Source: a virus. From it: a DNA stretch of 36,960 bases. The stretch covers positions 1-36,960 of IMG/VR virus record IMGVR_UViG_3300022935_001670. One strand, written 5' to 3'. Positions 22,693 to 34,195 of this stretch are shown here, one piece after another. A program made the translations under genes and the position numbers. Numbering within the stretch: position 1 is the stretch's first letter; each line of letters begins with the position of its first letter. The notes below the pieces were generated by a model, which had not been told where the DNA came from, did no database searches, and saw nothing but the letters and a program-made list of their open reading frames with translations.

Positions 22693-23331
22693 ATGCGCGA
22701 TCTATTGGACAAATTAAAATTATACGAACAGGACGAAGCCTATCAGGGCGAAGTTGAAGACTTTGAATTTACCGGCGATGACGGTGAAACAGGCTTTGGA
22801 ACATTATATTACACAGCAGTCAACGGACAAGTTGATCCTAATTCGCTGAGAGGTGAAGCGGAAGGCGATGGTAACAATAAACTGGACGATGAATTAGCAA
22901 CAGCAGTTGTGCAACCAGATGGTCCAGATCACGAAGCGGCATTAGAGGCTGCTCAAGAAGATTATGATGAAACTGCTCGCAGAATGATGAGCAAGTTTGA
23001 AGATGTTGACGACGAGCAAACATTTGAAGGTGAAGAGTTCTTTAATTACTATGGATACCTACCCTGGCACGAAGACGTACCTGTAGAAGAAGCAGAATAC
23101 AGAGGACGCAAGGTTTCATTAGGAAAGCCAATGCGTGGTGATGTTAAAAAATTTAAGGTATACGTCCGAGATCCAAAGACTAAAAATATTAAGAAAGTTA
23201 ACTTTGGTGATCCTAACATGAAGATCAAAAAATCCAATCCTGCACGCAGACGTTCATTCCGTGCAAGACATAACTGTGATAATCCAGGACCACGCACAAA
23301 AGCAAGATACTGGTCATGTAGGAAATGGTAA
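22693..23331 (+). CDS. Late protein with leader-like N-terminus and basic Cys-containing C-terminus
   Basis: 212 residues. Starts MRDLLDKLKLYEQDEA, an amphipathic segment with an LYE site, followed by a strongly acidic middle (residues ~15-110). The last ~80 residues switch to basic: VRDPKTKNIKKVNFGDPNM, then ARHNCDNPGPRTKARYWSCR. The C-terminal module with two cysteines 16 residues apart recurs in marine T4-like phages. No enzyme motif. First gene of a cluster sharing this general design; may be a scaffold, capsid-associated or packaged protein. Confidence 0.65.
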   Translation: MRDLLDKLKLYEQDEAYQGEVEDFEFTGDDGETGFGTLYYTAVNGQVDPNSLRGEAEGDGNNKLDDELATAVVQPDGPDHEAALEAAQEDYDETARRMMSKFEDVDDEQTFEGEEFFNYYGYLPWHEDVPVEEAEYRGRKVSLGKPMRGDVKKFKVYVRDPKTKNIKKVNFGDPNMKIKKSNPARRRSFRARHNCDNPGPRTKARYWSCRKW

Positions 23332-23334
23332 ACA

Positions 23335-23670
23335 ATGAAACTAAACGAATTATTCTCACCAATAGGCGCACCAAGCGATAAAGAAGACATTAACTGGTCA
23401 GAAGACCTAAAGTTTTTCGTTGATAATGATAATGATATATTGTCCAAGGTCATGTTTCCTGCTATAAAGAAACACATGACATATAAAGGACATCCTTCCG
23501 CTTATAAAATTTATATAAAGCCTTTAGAGCGTTGCAAGGAAATGTACGCAAAAAAATACAAATTAGATAATCCTGAAGAAAAAATTACAAAAGAAGCAAT
23601 TATTCAGTTAGCAAGAGAAATGGCTGAACAACAAGAAAAATACATAGAGCGCGGCGACTATGAGAATTAA
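23335..23670 (+). CDS. Small late protein with MKLNELF leader
   Basis: 111 residues. Begins MKLNELFSPIGAPSDKE, fitting the M-[RK]-[ILF]-x-E-[LVF] pattern of the cluster. The rest is a small helical domain (LKFFVDNDNDILSKVMFPAI, HPSAYKIYIKPLERCKEMYA, and a terminal EAIIQLAREMAEQQEKYI). Similar short proteins exist in T4-like cyanophages; function unknown. Its stop overlaps the next start by 11 bases. Confidence 0.65.
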   Translation: MKLNELFSPIGAPSDKEDINWSEDLKFFVDNDNDILSKVMFPAIKKHMTYKGHPSAYKIYIKPLERCKEMYAKKYKLDNPEEKITKEAIIQLAREMAEQQEKYIERGDYEN

Positions 23671-24286
23671 ACAATTATTCGAGGACGATAATAATAAGCA
23701 TGTCACCTTTTGTTTTGGTAGATTCAATCCTCCAACATTAGGTCACAAGCAAGTGTTTGATACCATGAAAGAAGTTGGTGGCGACATGCAAATTTTTACG
23801 ACATTGAGCCATGATAGAAAAAAGAACCCTCTCGAATATAATACAAAAATAGAATTTCTTAAAAAAATGTTTCCTCGGTATAGTGAGTTTGTAATGAACG
23901 CACCGACTTTGAATACTATTATGAAAATTGCTTCTTATCTTTACGACCAAGGATACAGGCATGCTACATTTGTTTCTGGTAGTGATAGAATGGAAGGTTT
24001 CAAGGACCTATTAAACAGTTACAATGGTGTTGAAGGAAAGTCCCATGGTTACTATAAGTTTGAAACTTTAGATTTTGTTTCAAGTGGACAGAGAGAAGAT
24101 GGTGGTGAAGGATTAGCAGGCATTAGTGCAACAGCAGCAAGAAGTGCCGCAGAAAATAATGACCTTGCAGCGTTTGCAAAAGCAACTGGTGCTGGAGAAA
24201 ATATAGAAGATTTATTTCATGCTGTAAGGAAAGGCATGGGAATTGAAGATGAAAAAGATAGTGAGGAAGAAGATGAAAATAAATGA
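23660..24286 (+). CDS. Nucleotidyltransferase (NMNAT/cytidylyltransferase superfamily) with leader
   Basis: 208 residues. Leader MRIKQLFEDD (LFE site), then a Rossmann-like nucleotidyltransferase domain: FCFGRFNPPTLGHKQVF carries the GRFNPPTxGH signature (H29; the TxGH variant of HxGH). The late GISATAARSAAENND matches the ISxTxxR motif that binds the nucleotide. Members transfer NMP to small phosphorylated substrates such as NMN; the true substrate is unknown. Unlike the early cytidylyltransferase at 11311 it lies in a late-type cluster and carries the cluster leader, so it may be packaged. Confidence 0.75.
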   Translation: MRIKQLFEDDNNKHVTFCFGRFNPPTLGHKQVFDTMKEVGGDMQIFTTLSHDRKKNPLEYNTKIEFLKKMFPRYSEFVMNAPTLNTIMKIASYLYDQGYRHATFVSGSDRMEGFKDLLNSYNGVEGKSHGYYKFETLDFVSSGQREDGGEGLAGISATAARSAAENNDLAAFAKATGAGENIEDLFHAVRKGMGIEDEKDSEEEDENK

Positions 24287-25109
24287 AGTCTCCATTCCGC
24301 CTATCAAAGCAAGAGATCCTAATTGGAAGGATATGGAATCACTTCGCAAGAGTGGGGCCGCTGGCGCTCATCGCGATAAGAAAAAAGAAATGAAACAGGG
24401 TAAAGTCAAACACAAGGGGAAAGAAATGGACGAATCTATCTACACACATCCAGCAGGAAATGAACTTTCCAGAATAGGAAGGATCCTAATGGACAAATCA
24501 ATCACAGTCAAGGACGATGCGTTATCCAACGTAATGGGCAGACTGGGCGACGAATTAACACGATATGGCGAAGCAGGCGGAGCATCAAGTTTCGATGAGT
24601 TGATTAAGAGAGTTCGACTCAATAAAGATCAAGTTATGAAAATGATGAAGTGGGCTCAGAAGCAGGAAGATACTTCATTACAAAAAGTTAAGGACCCTGC
24701 TCCATCTGCAGATGATGAAGATGAGAAAGAGGAATCTGTATCAAACGAAAAACATGACAACATGGAATTTTCCGATAAAGAAATCAAGATGGCTTATGGA
24801 GTCCTAAACGATCCAAGATACAAGGGCGGTAACTATTCAGGTGCTGTTAGAACAATCGAAAAGATTGCAAAAGGACTGTCGGATCATCCGGGCGTTAAGA
24901 AAGCACTACAAAGAACAAACGAAGCGATATGCGCTGAATGTGGAAAGGCTCGCTTTGTTGCTATGCCTGAAGAAATTCAAAAGCAATACGAAAGCGTTAA
25001 TGAGGAAAAGCAAAAAGGCATTGACGGTAAAGTATGCTGGAAGGGCTACAAGCGAATGGGCACCAAGATGAAGGGTGGCAAAAGAGTTGATAACTGTGTC
25101 AAGATGTAA
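24273..25109 (+). CDS. Late protein with MKINEV leader and CWKGYKR-type C-terminal module
   Basis: 278 residues from ATG 24273; an earlier in-frame ATG (24243) is deeper inside the previous gene. Leader MKINEVSIPPIKARDP. The middle is helical (IYTHPAGNELSRIGRILMDK, then FDELIKRVRLNKDQVMKMMK), and NEAICAECGKARFV gives a CxxC. It ends with VCWKGYKRMGTKMKGG then KRVDNCVKM, a two-Cys basic tail recognised at the C-termini of many marine myovirus proteins. The enzymatic role is unknown. Stop and next start share one base (TAATG). Confidence 0.65.
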   Translation: MKINEVSIPPIKARDPNWKDMESLRKSGAAGAHRDKKKEMKQGKVKHKGKEMDESIYTHPAGNELSRIGRILMDKSITVKDDALSNVMGRLGDELTRYGEAGGASSFDELIKRVRLNKDQVMKMMKWAQKQEDTSLQKVKDPAPSADDEDEKEESVSNEKHDNMEFSDKEIKMAYGVLNDPRYKGGNYSGAVRTIEKIAKGLSDHPGVKKALQRTNEAICAECGKARFVAMPEEIQKQYESVNEEKQKGIDGKVCWKGYKRMGTKMKGGKRVDNCVKM

Positions 25110-25309
25110 TGGAACTGGAGGAGTTAAAAAAACTTGCAGGCATCTATGAACGTCATGGTTGGAAAGCATATGACGGACCTAATTTATCCATTACAGGCAC
25201 CGAAAAACAATACTTAGAAAAGAAGCACAACATACAACCAGGTACCCCTGAATGGTTTAAGTTGTGGTTCTCATTACCAAAACTAACAGGCGAGAAACCA
25301 ATAGGATGA
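25109..25309 (+). CDS. Small late protein with LKKLAGI motif
   Basis: 66 residues, MELEELKKLAGIYERHG at the N-terminus, then a KQYLEKKHNIQPGTPEWFKL helix. The 'L..L.KLAG[IM]' peptide is frequent in T4-like marine phage proteins and recurs near the C-terminus of the protein at 27127 (DIIKLAGM). GGAGG lies inside the reading frame soon after the start; the actual ribosome site is weak. Function unknown. Confidence 0.55.
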   Translation: MELEELKKLAGIYERHGWKAYDGPNLSITGTEKQYLEKKHNIQPGTPEWFKLWFSLPKLTGEKPIG

Positions 25310-26505
25310 GATTCTTTGAATTCAAGAACGAGGAAGCAGCCGGAGTTGGCATAGTAACAAAACAGAATGCCACGGCAGACGTTCCTGTTGGTGGCGAATA
25401 CATGAACGTCAAGAAACTATTCCCCAAGAAGAAAAAGAAAAAGGAAAGCATAGAAGAAGCATTCGTTGAACCAAACTTTGATTATGAATGGGAAGAAGCA
25501 AACCGCTATCCAGAGTTTCAAAAGATTGGCAAGGATGCTTGGATTGAACTTGCTAAAAAGGGCAAGGTAGTTACCATTACCAATGCAACAGGTATCAGCA
25601 ATACAGATGCCACGGAGCCTGATAGTTTTTCATCGTTAGACAAGGACAAACAAGCAAGAGCATTAGCACAACTGGATAGTGGGGAAATTGAAATGCCTAT
25701 TGTTGCTGTGTATAGTGATGGTCACAAAGAACTTATTGGCGGCAACACAAGACTCACTGCCTTGATGGCAAAGAAAATTCCAGCGATGGTATGGCAATTT
25801 GATGTGCCTGATGATATTGCTAACCTTGCAGTAAACAAAAAGGAAAGCATAGCATACGAAGATATGTTCCAAGGACTAAATCCTAAGTCAGAAATTTACG
25901 TTGATATGGATGGAGTTCTCGCAGACTTCTTTGGAGAGTGGAAGAAGTTGGTAGGCAAGGACTGGAGAGAAATTGGTAAGGACGAAATTGAACCAGCACT
26001 TAAAAAAATTAGAGACGAGGAAGACTTTTGGTTAAACATTCCTCTAACAGCAAACGCAAAAAAATTACTCAGCATTATTAAACAGGTTAAAGGAAACTAC
26101 AAGATTCTAAGTTCACCATTGGCTAATGATCCTAAATCGGAACCACACAAGCGCGAATGGGTAGCGAAGAATTTAGACTTCTTCCCACCAACTGAAGTCA
26201 TCATAACCAAGGATAAGGCGAAGTATGCGACAACCCCCGACGGCACACCTAATATCCTTATAGACGATTATGGTGTTAATATTGCAGCGTGGGAAAGTGC
26301 CGGAGGCATAGGGTTCAAGCACAAGGATCACAAGTTTGAAAGGACTGCTAAAAAACTAAAGGCAGAGATAGAAGAAAGTTTCCAAAGCCTCGTAAGAAAT
26401 TACATAGAAGAAAAGTGGAGTGCCAAATACAAGAAAAGCATTAACTGCAACAATCCAAAGGGCTTTTCACAGAAAGCACACTGCGCAGGACGCAAGAAGA
26501 AATGA
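25306..26505 (+). CDS. Leader-bearing fusion: ParB-like domain plus HAD-type 5'-nucleotidase
   Basis: 399 residues from ATG 25306. Leader MRFFEFKNEEA, then TKQNATADVPVGGEYMNVKK, a motif of marine phage proteins, and a poly-Lys stretch. Residues ~60-175 resemble a ParB/sulfiredoxin-type domain with GGNTRLTALMA (145-155) in place of GxHRxxA. Residues ~195-340 form a HAD phosphatase: DMDGVLADF (nucleophile D200, acid D202), LSSPLANDP (motif II), ITKDKAKYA (motif III Lys) and LIDDYGVNI (motif IV), as in deoxynucleotidases. The C-terminus has EKWSAKYKKSINCNNPKG, then a second Cys and RKKK. An unusual architecture for a late gene. Confidence 0.75.
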   Translation: MRFFEFKNEEAAGVGIVTKQNATADVPVGGEYMNVKKLFPKKKKKKESIEEAFVEPNFDYEWEEANRYPEFQKIGKDAWIELAKKGKVVTITNATGISNTDATEPDSFSSLDKDKQARALAQLDSGEIEMPIVAVYSDGHKELIGGNTRLTALMAKKIPAMVWQFDVPDDIANLAVNKKESIAYEDMFQGLNPKSEIYVDMDGVLADFFGEWKKLVGKDWREIGKDEIEPALKKIRDEEDFWLNIPLTANAKKLLSIIKQVKGNYKILSSPLANDPKSEPHKREWVAKNLDFFPPTEVIITKDKAKYATTPDGTPNILIDDYGVNIAAWESAGGIGFKHKDHKFERTAKKLKAEIEESFQSLVRNYIEEKWSAKYKKSINCNNPKGFSQKAHCAGRKKK

Positions 26506-27122
26506 GAATATTTGAAGTAGTAGAAAACTTTGCTGATGATAAAAATCTACCAGATGAGTTTTTAAAAAGTAAATTTTACGATGAGGCTGACGATTGTAAA
26601 GAATCTACTAAAAAGTTTGTAGAATTTATGAAATCAAATAAACTTCCCGAACCCAAAGTTATTTGGCTTGCTCCACCAAAAGATATTAAAAAGTTTCCTG
26701 GTAAAAGCGGGCAGGGAGACGCACACATTATGCCTATAGTAGGTAATGATGCCATTGACTTTACGGCAAAACAATTCGGTGTAAATCAAATACCATTTAT
26801 TACGCCCATGAGTAAGGTAAAACAAGTTTATAATGAAATAGGTGGATATTATACGGATGCTCCGGATTGGGTTCCGGGTAAGACTACACACATCGTAGGA
26901 ACACTTAACAGTTTGCCACAAAAGGCATTAGGACTTGCAGAAAACTTTGCCGACGGTAAAGTAAAGGGCAAGAGCCGTCCAGGACGTGTAAAGCGTTCAG
27001 GTGCCAGTTGTAGTGGCAGCGTAACCAGCCTAAGAAAACGTGCCAAAAATGCAAGTGGTGAGAAAGCCAAGATGTATCACTGGTGCGCAAATATGAAGAG
27101 CGGTAGGAAAAAGGGTAAATAG
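26502..27122 (+). CDS. Leader-bearing protein with papain-like C-H-D pattern
   Basis: 206 residues. Leader MRIFEVVENFADD. The middle has C32 at the start of a helix (DDCKESTKKFVEFM), H75 in QGDAHIMPIV and D86 in GNDAIDFTAKQFG. This spacing and strand context match papain-like/transglutaminase-fold proteins ('C...helix...H...D.Ta.QF'). The C-terminus (GKSRPGRVKRSGASCSGS, then KMYHWCANMKSGRKK) is a basic two-Cys module seen in other phage proteins. The ENFAD peptide occurs both in the leader and just before the tail. Peptidase or transferase activity is an inference from pattern only. Confidence 0.6.
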   Translation: MRIFEVVENFADDKNLPDEFLKSKFYDEADDCKESTKKFVEFMKSNKLPEPKVIWLAPPKDIKKFPGKSGQGDAHIMPIVGNDAIDFTAKQFGVNQIPFITPMSKVKQVYNEIGGYYTDAPDWVPGKTTHIVGTLNSLPQKALGLAENFADGKVKGKSRPGRVKRSGASCSGSVTSLRKRAKNASGEKAKMYHWCANMKSGRKKGK

Positions 27123-27126
27123 TGTT

Positions 27127-28344
27127 ATGTTATTAAGAGAACTTTTTAAAGCAAAAGAAGATTCACTTCAGGAATTCGATCTTGGTAGTGTTTGGACAGG
27201 AATAAAAACCTTAGGTAAGGGCCTATTATCGGCTCCTGCTGCTGCCGCACAAATAGCACTCACACCATCAGACACTGCAAAATATGATACAATGGATGCT
27301 GCATCAAGTGTATATCAAGGTGCATTAGATAAAGGATTAAGTGGTGCTGAAGCAGAAAAACTTGCACAGGATTTTGAAAAATCACTAAAGGCAAATCCCA
27401 ATGATCCAAAGGTGAAACAAATACACAGCCAATATGCTGCTTGGGATGATAACTTTAATGAAATCCCAGGTTCAACAAAAGTGGCCAAACCTGCTACGGA
27501 CATCAAACCAGACTTAGTGGTTAAACCTAAAGTTTCAACAGCACCAGTTGATGATCCTACAACAAAAATTCCACAAATATCAAAATCAGAAAAACCAGTC
27601 GATCCAAAAGATTTTGAAAAGGCCATTGCGGGTAATGATGTTAGAAAAGTCTCAGACGCCATTCCTAATGTTGTTACAAATACAATGGCTGCTGATAAAC
27701 TTGCCACACAAACATTTAAGAATCCTACAGAAATAGAACAGGGTATTAAATCTGTTGTTGGTAATAAAATGCCGGCGAGCAACATCAGTGCATTAGCAGC
27801 AACGGCAGCAAAATATGCTATTCCAGCAGCAGGTGTTGTTGCATTGTTATATGGTGGTAAAAAATTATATGATTATCTAACAAAAGAAGAATCTATGAAA
27901 AATAATGAAAGCCAATACACACCAACACGTGATAAGGAAGACTACTTTGCCAAGAAGAAAGCACTACAGGATCTACAGGCAGATCCAAACACAGCAAAGG
28001 ATCCTGAACTACAGAAAGAATTAATTAAGCGTAAGAAAGCACTGGATAAGGATACTAAAGAACATTTAGATCTATTAGATATTATTAAATTAGCGGGCAT
28101 GGAAGAAAGTGCCACAGCAGGTGCTACAAGTTCTGCTAACATAGCAACTGTTGCTAACCCACATTTGAGTCCAGGACAAGCACGTGGTAAGAAATCTTAC
28201 ACAGGCAGTCCTTGGGGTGGTAAATCAGGCACAAAGGCACCCCCTCAACCAAGCGTAAAACAGCCTAAAAAGTCGGATGGAACTGCCAAAAATGCGCTTG
28301 ATATGAAAAACAATATTTTTGGCGAAAACCCTATTAGAAGATAA
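27127..28344 (+). CDS. Large low-complexity late protein with MLLRELF leader and a hydrophobic segment
   Basis: 405 residues. Leader MLLRELFKAKEDSLQEFD contains possible LRE and LQE sites. The body is Ala/Lys/Asp/Pro-rich and probably partly disordered. A single hydrophobic segment (AIPAAGVVALLYGGKKLYDY, about 234-253) could insert in a membrane. Later come a charged helix, DIIKLAGM, and a C-terminal KNNIFGENPIRR, an ending seen in cyanophage proteins. No ribosome site is clear; it may be coupled to the preceding stop. An injected membrane-interacting protein is one possibility. Confidence 0.6.
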   Translation: MLLRELFKAKEDSLQEFDLGSVWTGIKTLGKGLLSAPAAAAQIALTPSDTAKYDTMDAASSVYQGALDKGLSGAEAEKLAQDFEKSLKANPNDPKVKQIHSQYAAWDDNFNEIPGSTKVAKPATDIKPDLVVKPKVSTAPVDDPTTKIPQISKSEKPVDPKDFEKAIAGNDVRKVSDAIPNVVTNTMAADKLATQTFKNPTEIEQGIKSVVGNKMPASNISALAATAAKYAIPAAGVVALLYGGKKLYDYLTKEESMKNNESQYTPTRDKEDYFAKKKALQDLQADPNTAKDPELQKELIKRKKALDKDTKEHLDLLDIIKLAGMEESATAGATSSANIATVANPHLSPGQARGKKSYTGSPWGGKSGTKAPPQPSVKQPKKSDGTAKNALDMKNNIFGENPIRR

Positions 28345-28347
28345 ATA
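28340..28347 (+). promoter_or_regulatory. Candidate late promoter (GATAAATA)
   Basis: GATAAATA overlaps the TAA stop of the preceding gene and lies 4 bases before ATG 28352. If it acts as a T4-like late promoter, the transcript would begin at or after that ATG, favouring the next in-frame ATG (28367, with AAGAAAG upstream). The stop-codon overlap makes chance possible. Confidence 0.4.
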
Positions 28348-28351
28348 CAGT

Positions 28352-28681
28352 ATGGACCAAGAAAGAATGAATAAAGTTGACGATCACGAAGCCAAAATGG
28401 CTAAGGCAGAACTATACAAATCTGCACAGTATTCTGCCAAGTTGTTTAAAATGATCGATGACAATGAGGAACTTGAGGGTTGGGTTCAATCAAAGATAAC
28501 AAAAGCATCAGATTATCTTTCTTCAGTTTATCATTGGATGGAATACAACAAAATGGCCAAGTCTGCTATGAATGACGGTCCACAAGATTTTGAGGAAAGT
28601 GTGCATGAACAAATTAAAAAACAACTTTCTGAAAAATGGACAACAAACTACAAAAAGACAACAGACGGTAACAAGGATTAA
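28352..28681 (+). CDS. Small helical late protein conserved in T4-like marine phages
   Basis: 109 residues from ATG 28352 (28367 is an alternative). The DDHEAKMAKAELYKSAQYSA segment, followed by KLFKMIDDNEELEGWVQSKI and TKASDYLSSVYHWMEY, is a pattern I recognise from many T4-like cyanophage proteins. The C-terminus (KKQLSEKWTTNYKKTTDG) resembles the pre-Cys part of the tail of the protein at 25306. All-helical, without catalytic motif. Probably a virion-associated or packaged protein. Confidence 0.65.
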   Translation: MDQERMNKVDDHEAKMAKAELYKSAQYSAKLFKMIDDNEELEGWVQSKITKASDYLSSVYHWMEYNKMAKSAMNDGPQDFEESVHEQIKKQLSEKWTTNYKKTTDGNKD

Positions 28682-28683
28682 AA

Positions 28684-29781
28684 ATGGACTTTAGAAATAT
28701 CATTACAAAAATGCGCGAAATAGATCCTACTACGCCAGGTGAGGATTTACAGCGTTTAACGGCACTGGCAGAATCAACAGGTATTTCTATGGGCGCAAAA
28801 GAAAGTCCAAAAGAAATTATCAATGAAGATGTTGAAGTAGTTTCCGAAAAAGCAGTTAGCAAGAAGCAACAGAGATTTATGGGCATGGTTCATGCAGCAC
28901 AAAAAGGTGAAAAGCCTGCTTCTAAGGAAGTTGCTAAAGTTGCTAAAGACATGAAGAAGAAAGACGCAAAAGATTTTGCATCAACAAAGCACAAGGGTTT
29001 ACCAGAAAAGAAAAAGGCAAAGAAAGAATCAATTGAATTAGTTGATGACTTTGGTGAAATTGTTGAGGCTAAGAAAAGTGCCGCACAGAAAAAAGCGCAA
29101 GAGAAATTCAAGAACATGGTTAAAGGCAAGAAAGGCGATGACAAGGACTCGATGGACGAGTCGTCGGCTAAGCCAGACTTTCTTGACATTGATAAGGATG
29201 GCGACAAGAAAGAGCCGATGAAAAAGGCAGCCAAGGATGCTAAGAAAGGCAACAAGAAAACCGATGAAGGAATCGGTGGAGCACTTGCGGGTGCTGCGGC
29301 TGGTGACAGCATCATGGGTAAAATCGGTGGTGCATATGTTGGACATCAGACTCAAAAATCTCTTAATAAATCAGAAAAGAATATTAAGAAAATTGCCAAG
29401 GCATTACAAAATAAAGGAATTAATGTAGATATTGATGAAGCAAGCAAAAAGAAAACTGTCAAGGAATCAGTAGAACCTAAGATGTCATTTGTTGAAATGA
29501 TGAAGTTGGTTCGCGAAAGTGGCGGACAGCAGGCAATTGATCCACTTGATGATGTTCTTTGGTCTTGGGCAAATAGAGTTGCTCAATCAAAAGTGGAAGA
29601 ATCTACCAAACAGGAAATTTTCGCAGCAATGGTATACGAAAGAAACGGTGGACGTTTTGAAATGTATGACGTTGTTGAAAAGGGACTAAACGAAGGCAAG
29701 GACTGCAACTGTGGTCCAGACTGTGCGTGTAAAGGCAATTGCGGTGACGACTGCAACTGTGGTCCAAACTGCGGCAAATAA
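28684..29781 (+). CDS. Multi-module late protein with DUF3008-like, glycine-zipper and Cys-rich segments
   Basis: 365 residues with AAGGA 7 bases upstream. Modules in order: an N-terminal helical region; SKKQQRFMGMVHAAQKGEKP, then KDAKDFASTKHKGLPEK (residues ~59-103), resembling a DUF3008-type small domain; Lys/Ala-rich charged repeats with a PDFLDIDKDGDKKEPMKKA peptide; a glycine-zipper stretch IGGALAGAAAGDSIMGKIGG (about 198-217) that may contact membranes; a helical domain with WSWANRVAQSKVE; and an 8-cysteine tail (from ~340) of CNCGPDC-type repeats that resembles a metal-binding peptide. A strong terminator follows, so it closes the late cluster. Confidence 0.65.
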   Translation: MDFRNIITKMREIDPTTPGEDLQRLTALAESTGISMGAKESPKEIINEDVEVVSEKAVSKKQQRFMGMVHAAQKGEKPASKEVAKVAKDMKKKDAKDFASTKHKGLPEKKKAKKESIELVDDFGEIVEAKKSAAQKKAQEKFKNMVKGKKGDDKDSMDESSAKPDFLDIDKDGDKKEPMKKAAKDAKKGNKKTDEGIGGALAGAAAGDSIMGKIGGAYVGHQTQKSLNKSEKNIKKIAKALQNKGINVDIDEASKKKTVKESVEPKMSFVEMMKLVRESGGQQAIDPLDDVLWSWANRVAQSKVEESTKQEIFAAMVYERNGGRFEMYDVVEKGLNEGKDCNCGPDCACKGNCGDDCNCGPNCGK

Positions 29782-31457: not shown

Positions 31458-31535
31458 ATGAAGAAGGTTTTGTCCGCCACTAAAGGACTGTTTGGTATTT
31501 GTCAGCCGAAAATGACATGTAAGGAGAAAAGATGA
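31458..31535 (+). CDS. Possible 25-residue ORF coupled to DNA polymerase
   Basis: ATG 31458 has AAGGA 8 bases upstream and opens a 25-residue basic peptide (MKKVLSATKGLFGICQPKMT...) that ends in TGA overlapping the polymerase ATG (ATGA). Its last codons contain the AAGGAG ribosome site of gene 43. It may be a leader peptide coupling polymerase translation to upstream transcription, or be fortuitous. Confidence 0.4.
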   Translation: MKKVLSATKGLFGICQPKMTCKEKR

Positions 31536-34195
31536 GTTACGTAGATGCGTTCTATGACCGAAATGAAGACATTATTCGAATTGTCGAAAGAAAGAACGGC
31601 AAGAGAACTTTCACAGAGTATCAACCCCGACACATATTCTATTACAAGGACCCCAAGGGCAAGCACACGTCAATCTATGGCGAAACACTACAGCGTGTAA
31701 CAGCAAAGAACATCAAGGAACTGCGCAAGGAACTTGCGATACACTCCAACAAGAAACTATACGAAAGCGATATCAATCCCATCTATCGTTGTCTCGAGGA
31801 CAACTATCTAAACATCGACGCACCAAAACTGAACGTTGCGTTTTTCGATATTGAGGTTGATTTCGATCCAGAGCGTGGATACGCATCACCGGAAGACGCA
31901 TTCATGCCAATCACTTCCATTGCCGTGCATTTGCAGTGGATGGAAGAACTAATCTGTTTGGCAATTCCTCCCAAGACGCTGAGCATGGCAGAAGCACAGA
32001 AGGCAATTGAAGGAATCCCCAACACCATACTCTATGACAACGAAGCGGACATGCTGGATGCATTCCTTGACCTGATACAGGATGCGGATGTGTTGAGTGG
32101 TTGGAACTCGGAGGGTTATGATATCCCATACACGATTAACCGTGTAACAAAAGTGTTGAGTAAGGAAGACACAAGGCGTTTTTGTTTGTGGGATCAGTAT
32201 CCTAAGAAACGAACTTATGAAAAGTTTGGCAAGGAATCACAGACATATGATCTAATTGGTCGTGTGCATATTGATAGTTTGGAATTATACAGGAAATACA
32301 ACTACGAGGAAAGACATACGTACAGGCTGGATGCAATTGGTGAGCTTGAAGTAGGCGAAAAGAAAACCGTATATGAGGGTTCTCTTGATGCACTATACAA
32401 CAATGACTTTAGAACGTTCATTGAATATAACAGACAGGACACTGCGCTGTTGGACAAACTGGACAAGAAACTAAAATTTATCGATCTCGCAAACACAATT
32501 GCACACGAAAACACGGTTCTTATTTCAACAACAATGGGTGCCGTTGCCGTTACGGAACAGGGCATTATCAACGAAGCACACAGGCGTGGAATGATTGTTC
32601 CCAATCGTATTAAGCGTGAGCCAGGCAGTGAGCCTGCGGCAGGTGCGTATGTTGCGTATCCCAAGAAGGGCATACACGAATGGATTGGTAGTGTTGACTT
32701 GAATTCACTGTATCCTTCCGTGATTCGTGCATTGAACATGGGTCCAGAGACTGTTGTTGGGCAACTAAGACAGGACGGCACAAGGCAACACATTGATGCA
32801 CAGATGGCCAAGGGCAAATCATTTGCGGCTGCTTGGGAAGGCATGTTTGGCAGCGTGGAATACTCATCTGTGATGGAAAAAGAAATAGGCAGGCAGATTA
32901 CGATTGACTGGGAAAACGGAGACAACGATACATTAAGTGCCGCACAGATTTATGATCTAATCTATGAAAGCAATCAACCATGGATGCTCAGTGCCAATGG
33001 CACAATCTTCACGTATGAAAAAGAAGGCGTGATACCCGGCCTACTCGCACGTTGGTACAAGGAACGTAAGGAGATGCAGGCCAAGCAGAAGGAAAGCCAG
33101 AACGCAGGCAACAAGATTGAAGAAGAATACTGGGCAAAGCGACAGTTGGTCAAGAAGATCTTGCTGAACAGTTTGTATGGCGCTATTCTTAATCCCGGTT
33201 GTAGATTCTTTGACAACAGGATTGGTCAATCAGTTACACTAACCGGACGTAGCATTACACAACACATGGCTGCTAAGATCAATGAAATCGTAACGGGTGA
33301 ATATGATCATACAGGCAAGGCAATTGTTTATGGTGATACTGACTCCTGTTACTTTACGGCATACAGCGTTCTCAAGAAGGACATTGATGCAGGAAAGATT
33401 CCATGGACCAAGGACAGCGTTATTGAATTGTATGATACCATTGGTGAAACGACCAATGACTCGTTTGGCAAGTTCATGGGTGAAGCATTCCACTGTCCCA
33501 AGAAGCGTTCGGAAGTGATTGCGGCAGCACGTGAAATTGTTGCGAGCAAGGGACTGTTCATTACCAAGAAAAGATATGCCGTTCTCTACTATGACATTGA
33601 GGGTTTTAGAACTGACACGGAAGGCAAGGCGGGCAAGATCAAGGCAATGGGCTTGGACCTAAAGCGTTCGGACACACCAGTCGTGATCCAGGACTTCCTA
33701 AAGAATGTTTTGGAAATGGTCTTGGAAGGACAGGAACGAGAGCGTGTGCTTGATTATATTACGGAATTCCGAACGGAATTCAAGGCACGTCCGGGTTGGG
33801 AAAAGGGTTCTCCAAAGCGTGCCAACAAGATTACTGAATACGAAGCCAAGGAAAAGAAAGCGGGCAAGGCTAATATGCCTGGACACGTAAGAGCAAGTAT
33901 CAATTGGAATACGCTCAAGCGCATGAATGGCGACAAGTATTCAATGAACATTACGGACGGTGCAAAGGTCATCGTGTGTAGGGTAAAAGATAATCCAATG
34001 GGATACACATCAGTTGCGTATCCGGTAGATGAACTAAGGCTACCGGAATGGTTCAAGGAGTTACCATTCGATGACGCAACTATGGAGAATACGGTCATCG
34101 ACGAAAAACTCAATAACCTAATTGGTGTTTTGGAATGGGACATAAGCAAGACTCGCAATGATAATAACTTTAACAAATTATTTGATTTTGAGTAA
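31532..34195 (+). CDS. 43: Family B DNA polymerase (gp43-like)
   Basis: 887 residues, against 898 in T4. Exonuclease motifs: FFDIEVDF (D106, E108), WNSEGYDIPY (D197) and YNRQDTALLD (D303). Polymerase motif A: VDLNSLYPSV (D389); motif B: KKILLNSLYG (541-550); motif C: YGDTDS (D602, D604). All catalytic residues are therefore present, with an active proofreading domain. No intein or split is visible. AAGGAG ribosome site 5 bases upstream. The gene is more GC-rich than most of the window. The C-terminus (NNFNKLFDFE) is where T4 gp43 contacts the clamp. Confidence 0.95.
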   Translation: MSYVDAFYDRNEDIIRIVERKNGKRTFTEYQPRHIFYYKDPKGKHTSIYGETLQRVTAKNIKELRKELAIHSNKKLYESDINPIYRCLEDNYLNIDAPKLNVAFFDIEVDFDPERGYASPEDAFMPITSIAVHLQWMEELICLAIPPKTLSMAEAQKAIEGIPNTILYDNEADMLDAFLDLIQDADVLSGWNSEGYDIPYTINRVTKVLSKEDTRRFCLWDQYPKKRTYEKFGKESQTYDLIGRVHIDSLELYRKYNYEERHTYRLDAIGELEVGEKKTVYEGSLDALYNNDFRTFIEYNRQDTALLDKLDKKLKFIDLANTIAHENTVLISTTMGAVAVTEQGIINEAHRRGMIVPNRIKREPGSEPAAGAYVAYPKKGIHEWIGSVDLNSLYPSVIRALNMGPETVVGQLRQDGTRQHIDAQMAKGKSFAAAWEGMFGSVEYSSVMEKEIGRQITIDWENGDNDTLSAAQIYDLIYESNQPWMLSANGTIFTYEKEGVIPGLLARWYKERKEMQAKQKESQNAGNKIEEEYWAKRQLVKKILLNSLYGAILNPGCRFFDNRIGQSVTLTGRSITQHMAAKINEIVTGEYDHTGKAIVYGDTDSCYFTAYSVLKKDIDAGKIPWTKDSVIELYDTIGETTNDSFGKFMGEAFHCPKKRSEVIAAAREIVASKGLFITKKRYAVLYYDIEGFRTDTEGKAGKIKAMGLDLKRSDTPVVIQDFLKNVLEMVLEGQERERVLDYITEFRTEFKARPGWEKGSPKRANKITEYEAKEKKAGKANMPGHVRASINWNTLKRMNGDKYSMNITDGAKVIVCRVKDNPMGYTSVAYPVDELRLPEWFKELPFDDATMENTVIDEKLNNLIGVLEWDISKTRNDNNFNKLFDFE

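Follow-up and report, generated by a model that had tools for sequence, protein, structure and literature searches.

The leader-bearing gene cluster

We analysed IMG/VR virus record IMGVR_UViG_3300022935_001670 (36,960 bases, the whole of which is referred to here as the window). By gene content it belongs to a T4-related phage, encoding tail fibres, a gp31-like co-chaperonin, a clamp loader, PhoH, an endolysin, a peptide deformylase, and a ClpA-like protease. Our subject is a cluster of plus-strand genes at 22693 to 29781, with the DNA polymerase gene (31532 to 34195) a short way downstream, in which several proteins with unrelated bodies begin with a short common leader. A preliminary description of this DNA, made from its letters, had likened the leader to the capsid-targeting sequence of T4 internal head proteins. 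In the list below, open reading frames (ORFs) are named by their first position, lengths are in amino acids (aa), and a slash marks a predicted cut.

22693 to 23331, + strand: variant leader protein; N-terminus MRDLLDKLKLYE/Q; C-terminal module C (phrog_7595, RSFRARHNCDNPGPRTKARYWSC) after VEE133
23335 to 23670, + strand: leader protein, 111 aa, MKLNE/LF; body without assigned function, with about 37 family members among the related loci
23341 to 23349, + strand: predicted protease site LNE, residues 3 to 5, the sole [ILV]-x-E in protein 23335
23660 to 24286, + strand: leader protein MRIKQLFE/DD, nucleotidyltransferase (CTP_transf_like; NPPTLGH and GISAT); homologues in cyanophage virions
23675 to 23683, + strand: predicted protease site LFE, residues 6 to 8, the sole site in the 208 aa of 23660, adjoining the enzyme domain
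24273 to 25109, + strand: leader protein MKINE/VS; DUF7230-like segment; C-terminal Cys module B (CWKGYKRMGTKMKGGKRVDNC); start chosen
24996 to 25004, + strand: putative junction site VNE, residues 242 to 244 of 24273, adjoining module B (25005 to 25106)
25109 to 25309, + strand: 66-aa protein with a second N-terminus type, MELEELKKLAGIYE/RHGWK; conserved family M[DN]IxxLKxLAG[IV]xE
25306 to 26505, + strand: leader protein MRFFEFK; ParB-like segment (by eye); NT5C 5'-deoxyribonucleotidase (HAD); C-terminal module E KWSAKYKKSINCNNPKGFSQKAHC
25450 to 25458, + strand: putative junction site IEE, residues 49 to 51 of 25306, before the ParB-like segment
26404 to 26412, + strand: putative junction site IEE, residues 367 to 369 of 25306, immediately before module E (26413 to 26502)
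26502 to 27122, + strand: leader protein MRIFEVVE/N; invariant Cys-32, His-75, and Asp-86 (candidate papain-like hydrolase); ends in the basic Cys module A
26934 to 26942, + strand: putative junction site LAE, residues 145 to 147 of 26502, immediately before module A, inside a low-confidence, probably flexible linker
26943 to 27119, + strand: module A, NFADGKVKGKSRPGRVKRSGASC...MYHWCANMKSGRKKGK, C-terminus of 26502
27127 to 28344, + strand: leader protein MLLRE/LF..LQE16/; body of low complexity holding a single hydrophobic segment; residues 17 to 405 free of [ILV]-x-E
28684 to 29781, + strand: neighbour in the cluster, lacking the canonical leader; [ILV]-x-E at 12 places, with VSE55 before DUF3008 module D and LNE337 before a Cys-rich tail

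All six N-termini named in the preliminary description are in place (MKLNELF in 23335, MRIKQLF in 23660, MKINEVS in 24273, MRFFEFK in 25306, MRIFEVV in 26502, and MLLRELF in 27127), and 22693 starts as it gave, MRDLLDKLKLYEQ. The pattern M[KRL][ILF].[EQ][LVF] matches these six of the 52 window genes and no other, all within one cluster. At the rate found for internal methionines (0.34%, below), six or more matches among 52 genes have a P of about 3e-8, an indicative value, as these same genes supplied the pattern and related loci the rate. The starts of 24273 and 25306 are choices inside longer ORFs (open to TTG 24243 and GTG 25264, respectively), and homologues support both choices. Genes 25109 and 28684, with variant or multiple sites, also belong to the cluster and correct its earlier outline.

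The bodies are unrelated, as had been claimed: a CTP_transf_like nucleotidyltransferase, an NT5C deoxyribonucleotidase, a Cys-His-Asp hydrolase candidate, and others without assigned function. A tripeptide [ILV]-x-E falls within the first 16 residues of six of the seven window leader proteins, compared with 5 of the 42 others. One correction to the earlier account concerns MRFFEFK, which lacks a strict [LI]-x-E. Since the six window leaders have only 7 to 13 of the 18 nucleotides after ATG in common, they are not fresh copies at the DNA level, and recent DNA copying was rejected as their origin.

Conservation of the leader in related loci

The comparison covered 237 related environmental loci and the window, with 3403 distinct ORFs called. 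The pattern M[KR]phi.[EDQ]phi (phi, hydrophobic) stands at 451 of the 3403 gene starts (13.3%) against 58 of 17,021 internal methionines (0.34%), an excess of about 39-fold; four permuted patterns reached 7 to 58 starts only. About 50 body clusters stand behind the leader in these loci. On the nearly whole 320-kb contig G001, it occurs at 9 of 439 ORFs (2.1%) versus 3 of 1966 internal methionines (0.15%).

Constraint extends beyond the positions used for selection. Glu occupies position 8 in 37% and position 9 in 27% of leaders (one or the other in about 64%), against about 7% at other starts, and is back at background by position 10; conservation of the leader ends after residue 9. A phi-x-E ending at residues 8 to 13 is present in 74% of leaders versus 19.5%. 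At the DNA level, a pattern for M[KR]xxE-phi-phi-x-E was found at 25 places in 13 of 16 records, and the backward pattern at none.

The preliminary description had proposed aligning N-termini of homologues, and this comparison, run in part, bore it out: the leader is kept where bodies are 29 to 60% identical, with the drop after residue 9 already noted. In 64 of 68 nucleotidyltransferases it abuts the enzyme domain, as in MLLRELFE, where the domain follows within a few residues, and the 29%-identical homologue of 26502 retains MKLQELFED. Loss of the leader in homologues, named beforehand as a ground for refutation, was seen in places, some homologues of 24273 being without it, so the leader is frequent and not obligatory. 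It is real, conserved, and widespread. A back-translated-peptide search found no close relatives of 23660.

Correspondence to T4 internal-protein leaders

According to a review (PMC9026906), T4 IPIII needs no more than its first ten residues for head incorporation, residues 4 and 7 serving targeting and residues 8 and 10 processing, and gp21 cleaves after L/I-x-E. Both targeting and cleavage of the T4 sequence have been shown in earlier work. The T4 record gives MKTYQEFIAE for ipII and ipIII, MKTFKEFTS...ITE19 for ipI, MELITELFDE for alt, and MAKINELLRE for the vertex protein gp24. With one residue removed near the start, these leaders superimpose on that of the window, so that IPIII residues 4, 7, 8, and 10 become the conserved positions 3, 6, 7, and 9. 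Hydrophobic residues at positions 3 and 6, present by selection, align with those of ipII/ipIII, alt, and gp24, and a gp21 motif sits at the leader end in the six window proteins counted above.

The likeness to IPI, IPII, and IPIII thus comprises a short N-terminal leader, hydrophobic targeting positions, phi-x-E processing positions, unrelated bodies, and, in relatives, gp21/gp23 heads. The window leader differs in being mostly one residue shorter (a 9-mer, M-[KR]-phi-x-E-phi-phi-x-E), and its cargo, known here from sequence, takes in proteins identifiable as enzymes as well as modular chains, with several such proteins in a genome. Alt, an ADP-ribosyltransferase, offers the precedent of an enzyme packaged in the head and injected; the starts of Alt and gp24 are nearly superimposable on MKLNELF and MKINELLRE, while their bodies show no sequence relation. 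The ejection proteins of SPN3US and phiKZ (PMC10052503) are likewise numerous and head-packaged, some being processed within the prohead, but they belong to another head lineage and are known from mass spectrometry, not from a short shared leader. An N-terminal segment also suffices for head uptake of P1 DarB (PMC9024508); there, 30 residues were shown to be sufficient and the cargo is defence-related. In the open-licence literature we found no description of such a leader as a capsid-targeting sequence in a cyanophage, metagenomic, or jumbo-phage context.

T4 gp61.1, a hypothetical 54-aa protein adjoining the primase gene (NC_000866, 18966 to 19130; L261:467-631), starts MKTFKEFIKE, nearly the IPI/IPIII capsid-targeting sequence, and is by this resemblance a candidate for unrecognised head cargo.

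Among 18 long leader-bearing contigs, a gp23-type head gene was found in eight, and a gp21-type protease gene in the same eight (8/8). In the five gp21 relatives that were aligned, the HP and GVSSRG motifs known from the T4 protease are conserved.

Leader proteins in cyanophage virions

We mapped the published virion table of S-CREM2 (PMC10665884) to its genes and applied a fixed leader pattern. Five of the six leader proteins were detected in purified virions (SAM hydrolase gp6, gp13, kinase gp14, gp136, and cytidylyltransferase gp154, with gp175 undetected), compared with 52 of 219 overall (P=0.003, somewhat optimistic as the pattern was fixed after the list had been seen). Homologues of the 23660 nucleotidyltransferase occur in virions of three T4-like cyanophages, each with a capsid-targeting-like leader: MKNFSSFLTE in S-CREM2, MRFRQFIIE in S-SZBM1, and MKSFLQFLKE in S-SCSM1. 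The virion-presence check proposed in the preliminary description, carried out in part and on homologues, leaned in favour, with significance in S-CREM2 (5/6) and without it in S-SZBM1 (1/4, below). In two of the three, the leader is a T4-like 10-mer, and the background is not that of jumbo phages. These cytidylyltransferase/NMNAT-like virion proteins pass without remark on the leader in the available portions of the three papers (PMC9602691, PMC9146016, and PMC10665884).

The S-SCSM1 homologue is annotated as a virion protein, and so are neighbours of it, among them a 69-aa DUF3008 protein. That stand-alone DUF3008 protein matches module D of window gene 28684, and virion-detected S-CREM2 gp160 holds a module like the C-terminus of 24273.

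Three further proteins were noted alongside these. The S-SCSM1 DUF3008 protein, gp279 (L278:4990-5199), has a capsid-targeting-like C-terminal end, KRTFKEFLEYIE. S-CREM2 virion protein gp156 (OR473000, 126012 to 126725) starts MKKLISELKLTLQTHDKLN, shows nucleotidyltransferase-like motifs by eye, and lies in the same cluster as the cytidylyltransferase. On contig G001 (G001:C1:201771, L272), MRAQEFIDE precedes a kinase-like body (GKGVDQTAYLEPSTGLVLKVFG, by eye), a parallel to S-CREM2 gp14, the virion-detected APH-like kinase that also bears a leader.

Proposed cargo enzymes

Protein 23660 scores 24 bits against Pfam PF01467 (cut-off 21) and carries NPPTLGH (HxGH-like) and GISAT (SxT) motifs, identifying it as a nucleotidyltransferase. 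Protein 25306 contains an NT5C-type nucleotidase; its AlphaFold model, built without an alignment, had a pLDDT of 35. Searches of PDB sequences with 23660 and 25306 returned no match. In 26502, Cys-32, His-75, and Asp-86 are invariant in five aligned sequences. Its AlphaFold model (mean pLDDT 65) is best over residues 13 to 113, approximately, and low over the leader and the 140 to 164 linker; it gave no fold match at E<=0.001, and its weak best matches are mostly thiol hydrolases.

Hydrophobic-x-E sites at module junctions

Beyond residue 18, the seven window leader proteins hold 7 [ILV]-x-E sites versus 20.3 in shuffles (P=0.0005), compared with 145 observed and 118 by shuffling in the other 42 genes. 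Five of these seven late sites lie at module boundaries: VEE133 in 22693, VNE244 in 24273, IEE51 and IEE369 in 25306, and LAE147 in 26502. These internal junctions are an addition to the preliminary description, which had missed them.

In independent contexts, [ILVMF]-x-E stands right before module A in 49 of 59, module E in 14 of 14, and module D in 6 of 6 (69 of 79 together). Sequences upstream of the three modules are unrelated, and positions neighbouring the site are free. Module A is present in at least 580 environmental viral stretches and was also found directly behind the leader alone (MRIFEVVENFADGKKKGKSRPG); tblastn detected it in none of 50,697 phage isolate records. A single ORF in L279 combines the equivalents of 25306 and 26502. 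A systematic test of junctions by BLAST boundaries gave a modest peak (5 to 6% versus a background of about 1%), and the junction claim therefore rests on the three hand-defined modules.

The junction pattern matches what would be expected of cargo chains cut by a prohead protease, and some of the proposed cargos resemble polyproteins that would be cut up within the prohead. The small modules at the C-termini are basic and Cys-containing; our guess is that they may bind DNA or hold cargo in the head.

Interpretation and alternatives

Very probably, the leader targets proteins to the capsid in the manner of the T4 internal proteins, and the tagged enzymes would be packaged, cut, and injected with the DNA. 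Conservation in homologues and the presence of cyanophage relatives in virions support the earlier reading to this effect. Late in infection, the leader, hydrophobic at positions 3 and 6, would bind the prohead core built by a gp22-type scaffold, and closure of the gp23-type shell would trap the tagged enzymes. A gp21-type prohead protease would then cut after the Glu of hydrophobic-x-E, taking the leader off, and cuts at module junctions would separate enzyme bodies from the small basic Cys-containing modules. Once freed, the proteins could stay by the packaged DNA and pass with it into the next host. Packaging of the tagged proteins and removal of the leader are both likely, cutting at module junctions is plausible, and we infer injection by analogy with T4 and P1. 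Targeting and cleavage would presumably take place in the window phage itself.

Several observations weigh against this reading. The 13.3% leader rate is an enriched one, obtained from loci collected by homology to cluster proteins (via 26502, 25306, and 22693), and falls to 2.1% (against 0.15%) on G001 overall; some homologues of 24273 have no leader. The window, being a genome fragment, has no recognised gp23-type capsid or gp21-type protease gene, and both are missing from 10 of the 18 long contigs, which we took as fragments. The virion data come from cyanophages, and the nearest isolates to the window by DNA polymerase are less than 60% identical. In S-SZBM1 (PMC9146016), one of four pattern proteins was detected, the cytidylyltransferase (P=0.45). 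The authors of the virion papers caution about carry-over of abundant proteins. Once the loci are dereplicated, site depletion is moderate (ratio 0.68 vs 0.93, P=4e-4), and in G001 it is absent (20 vs 18.4), for which reason cleavage is something we infer. Depletion, strong in the window, was accordingly dropped as a general mark of cargo.

A related explanation is that only prohead assembly proteins carry the leader, as a tag for binding the core; the tagged proteins would give the core its shape or stability, would afterwards stay in place or be broken down, and would not be injected enzymes. T4 gp22, gp67, and gp68 are cut by the same rule and have many hydrophobic-x-E tripeptides in their N-termini, and 28684, with its 12 sites, resembles such a core protein. 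We nevertheless consider this unlikely, as several bodies are enzymes with intact motifs (nucleotidyltransferase, NT5C, and Cys hydrolase candidate), protease sites are avoided within enzyme bodies in the window, and homologues persist into mature virions. Every copy of the leader begins at an initiation codon, and phages often have AT-rich 5' ends and swap gene starts, so the likeness might be a by-product of translation initiation or of copied 5' ends, with no targeting function. The limited nucleotide identity among the window leaders, the constraint on amino-acid classes reaching unselected positions 8 and 9, the lesser enrichment of permuted patterns, and the lack of a leader in other window genes make this very improbable. 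Least credible of all is an N-terminal degron or a host-targeting signal at work in the infected cell. Short N-terminal tags on unrelated proteins can act in that way in general, but the leader matches the T4 capsid-targeting positions, gp21 co-occurs, and homologues are detected in virions.

The junction sites call for a separate judgement, as hydrophobic-x-E before modules could consist of ordinary linker or module residues, the cargos staying full-length multidomain proteins. Glu at -1 is invariant for module A (59/59) and could be the module's first residue; the fusion junction in L279 reads K-L-E, not phi-x-E, and about 17% of module A contexts have no hydrophobic residue at -3. On the other side, a hydrophobic residue at -3 recurs for three unrelated modules with -2, -4, and beyond free, and the 26502 model is of low confidence over residues 140 to 164, around the site. 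We regard intact multidomain cargos as a real possibility, though the less probable one, and cutting at the junctions as the preferred account.

We would as readily accept as doubt the wider proposal that environmental T4-related phages, including jumbo phages, have a general, sequence-readable delivery system, with a 9-residue leader, interchangeable chains, junction cutting, and an injected takeover or counter-defence kit. A simple sequence rule would predict which uncharacterised proteins of these phages travel in the virion, making the question of what they inject besides DNA directly testable. The leader also offers a reason for the recurrent nucleotidyltransferase in cyanophage virion proteomes, and the junction sites suggest that one tag could serve to pack several activities. 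Short leaders of this type are an established means of bringing foreign proteins into phage heads.

Phage relatives and minor observations

The window polymerase has its nearest counterparts in jumbo phages (Phosso, Atu_ph07, and the 121Q/PBECO4 group), each less than 60% identical to it, and the Clp protease-DnaJ-PhoH-clamp loader neighbourhood is common to the window and Atu_ph07. At the DNA level, nothing among 50,697 phage records matched the right two thirds of the window, and the DNA leader pattern is absent from Atu_ph07. In the cultured Sinorhizobium jumbo phage Phosso (L260), leader-like starts MKAIEILSE, MRFYEIKGG, and MRLSEIINE occur at 331487, 336004, and 339080, downstream of a DnaB-like helicase gene.

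In many relatives, the family of 25109 starts M[DN]IxxLKxLAG[IV][NG]E/FKGY, and the gp22-like scaffold proteins of L093-L097 have a similar LAGL stretch at their ends. The Cys-rich tail of 28684 (CNCGPDCACKGNCGDDCNCGPNCGK, 29686 to 29778), right behind the LNE site, is metallothionein-like.

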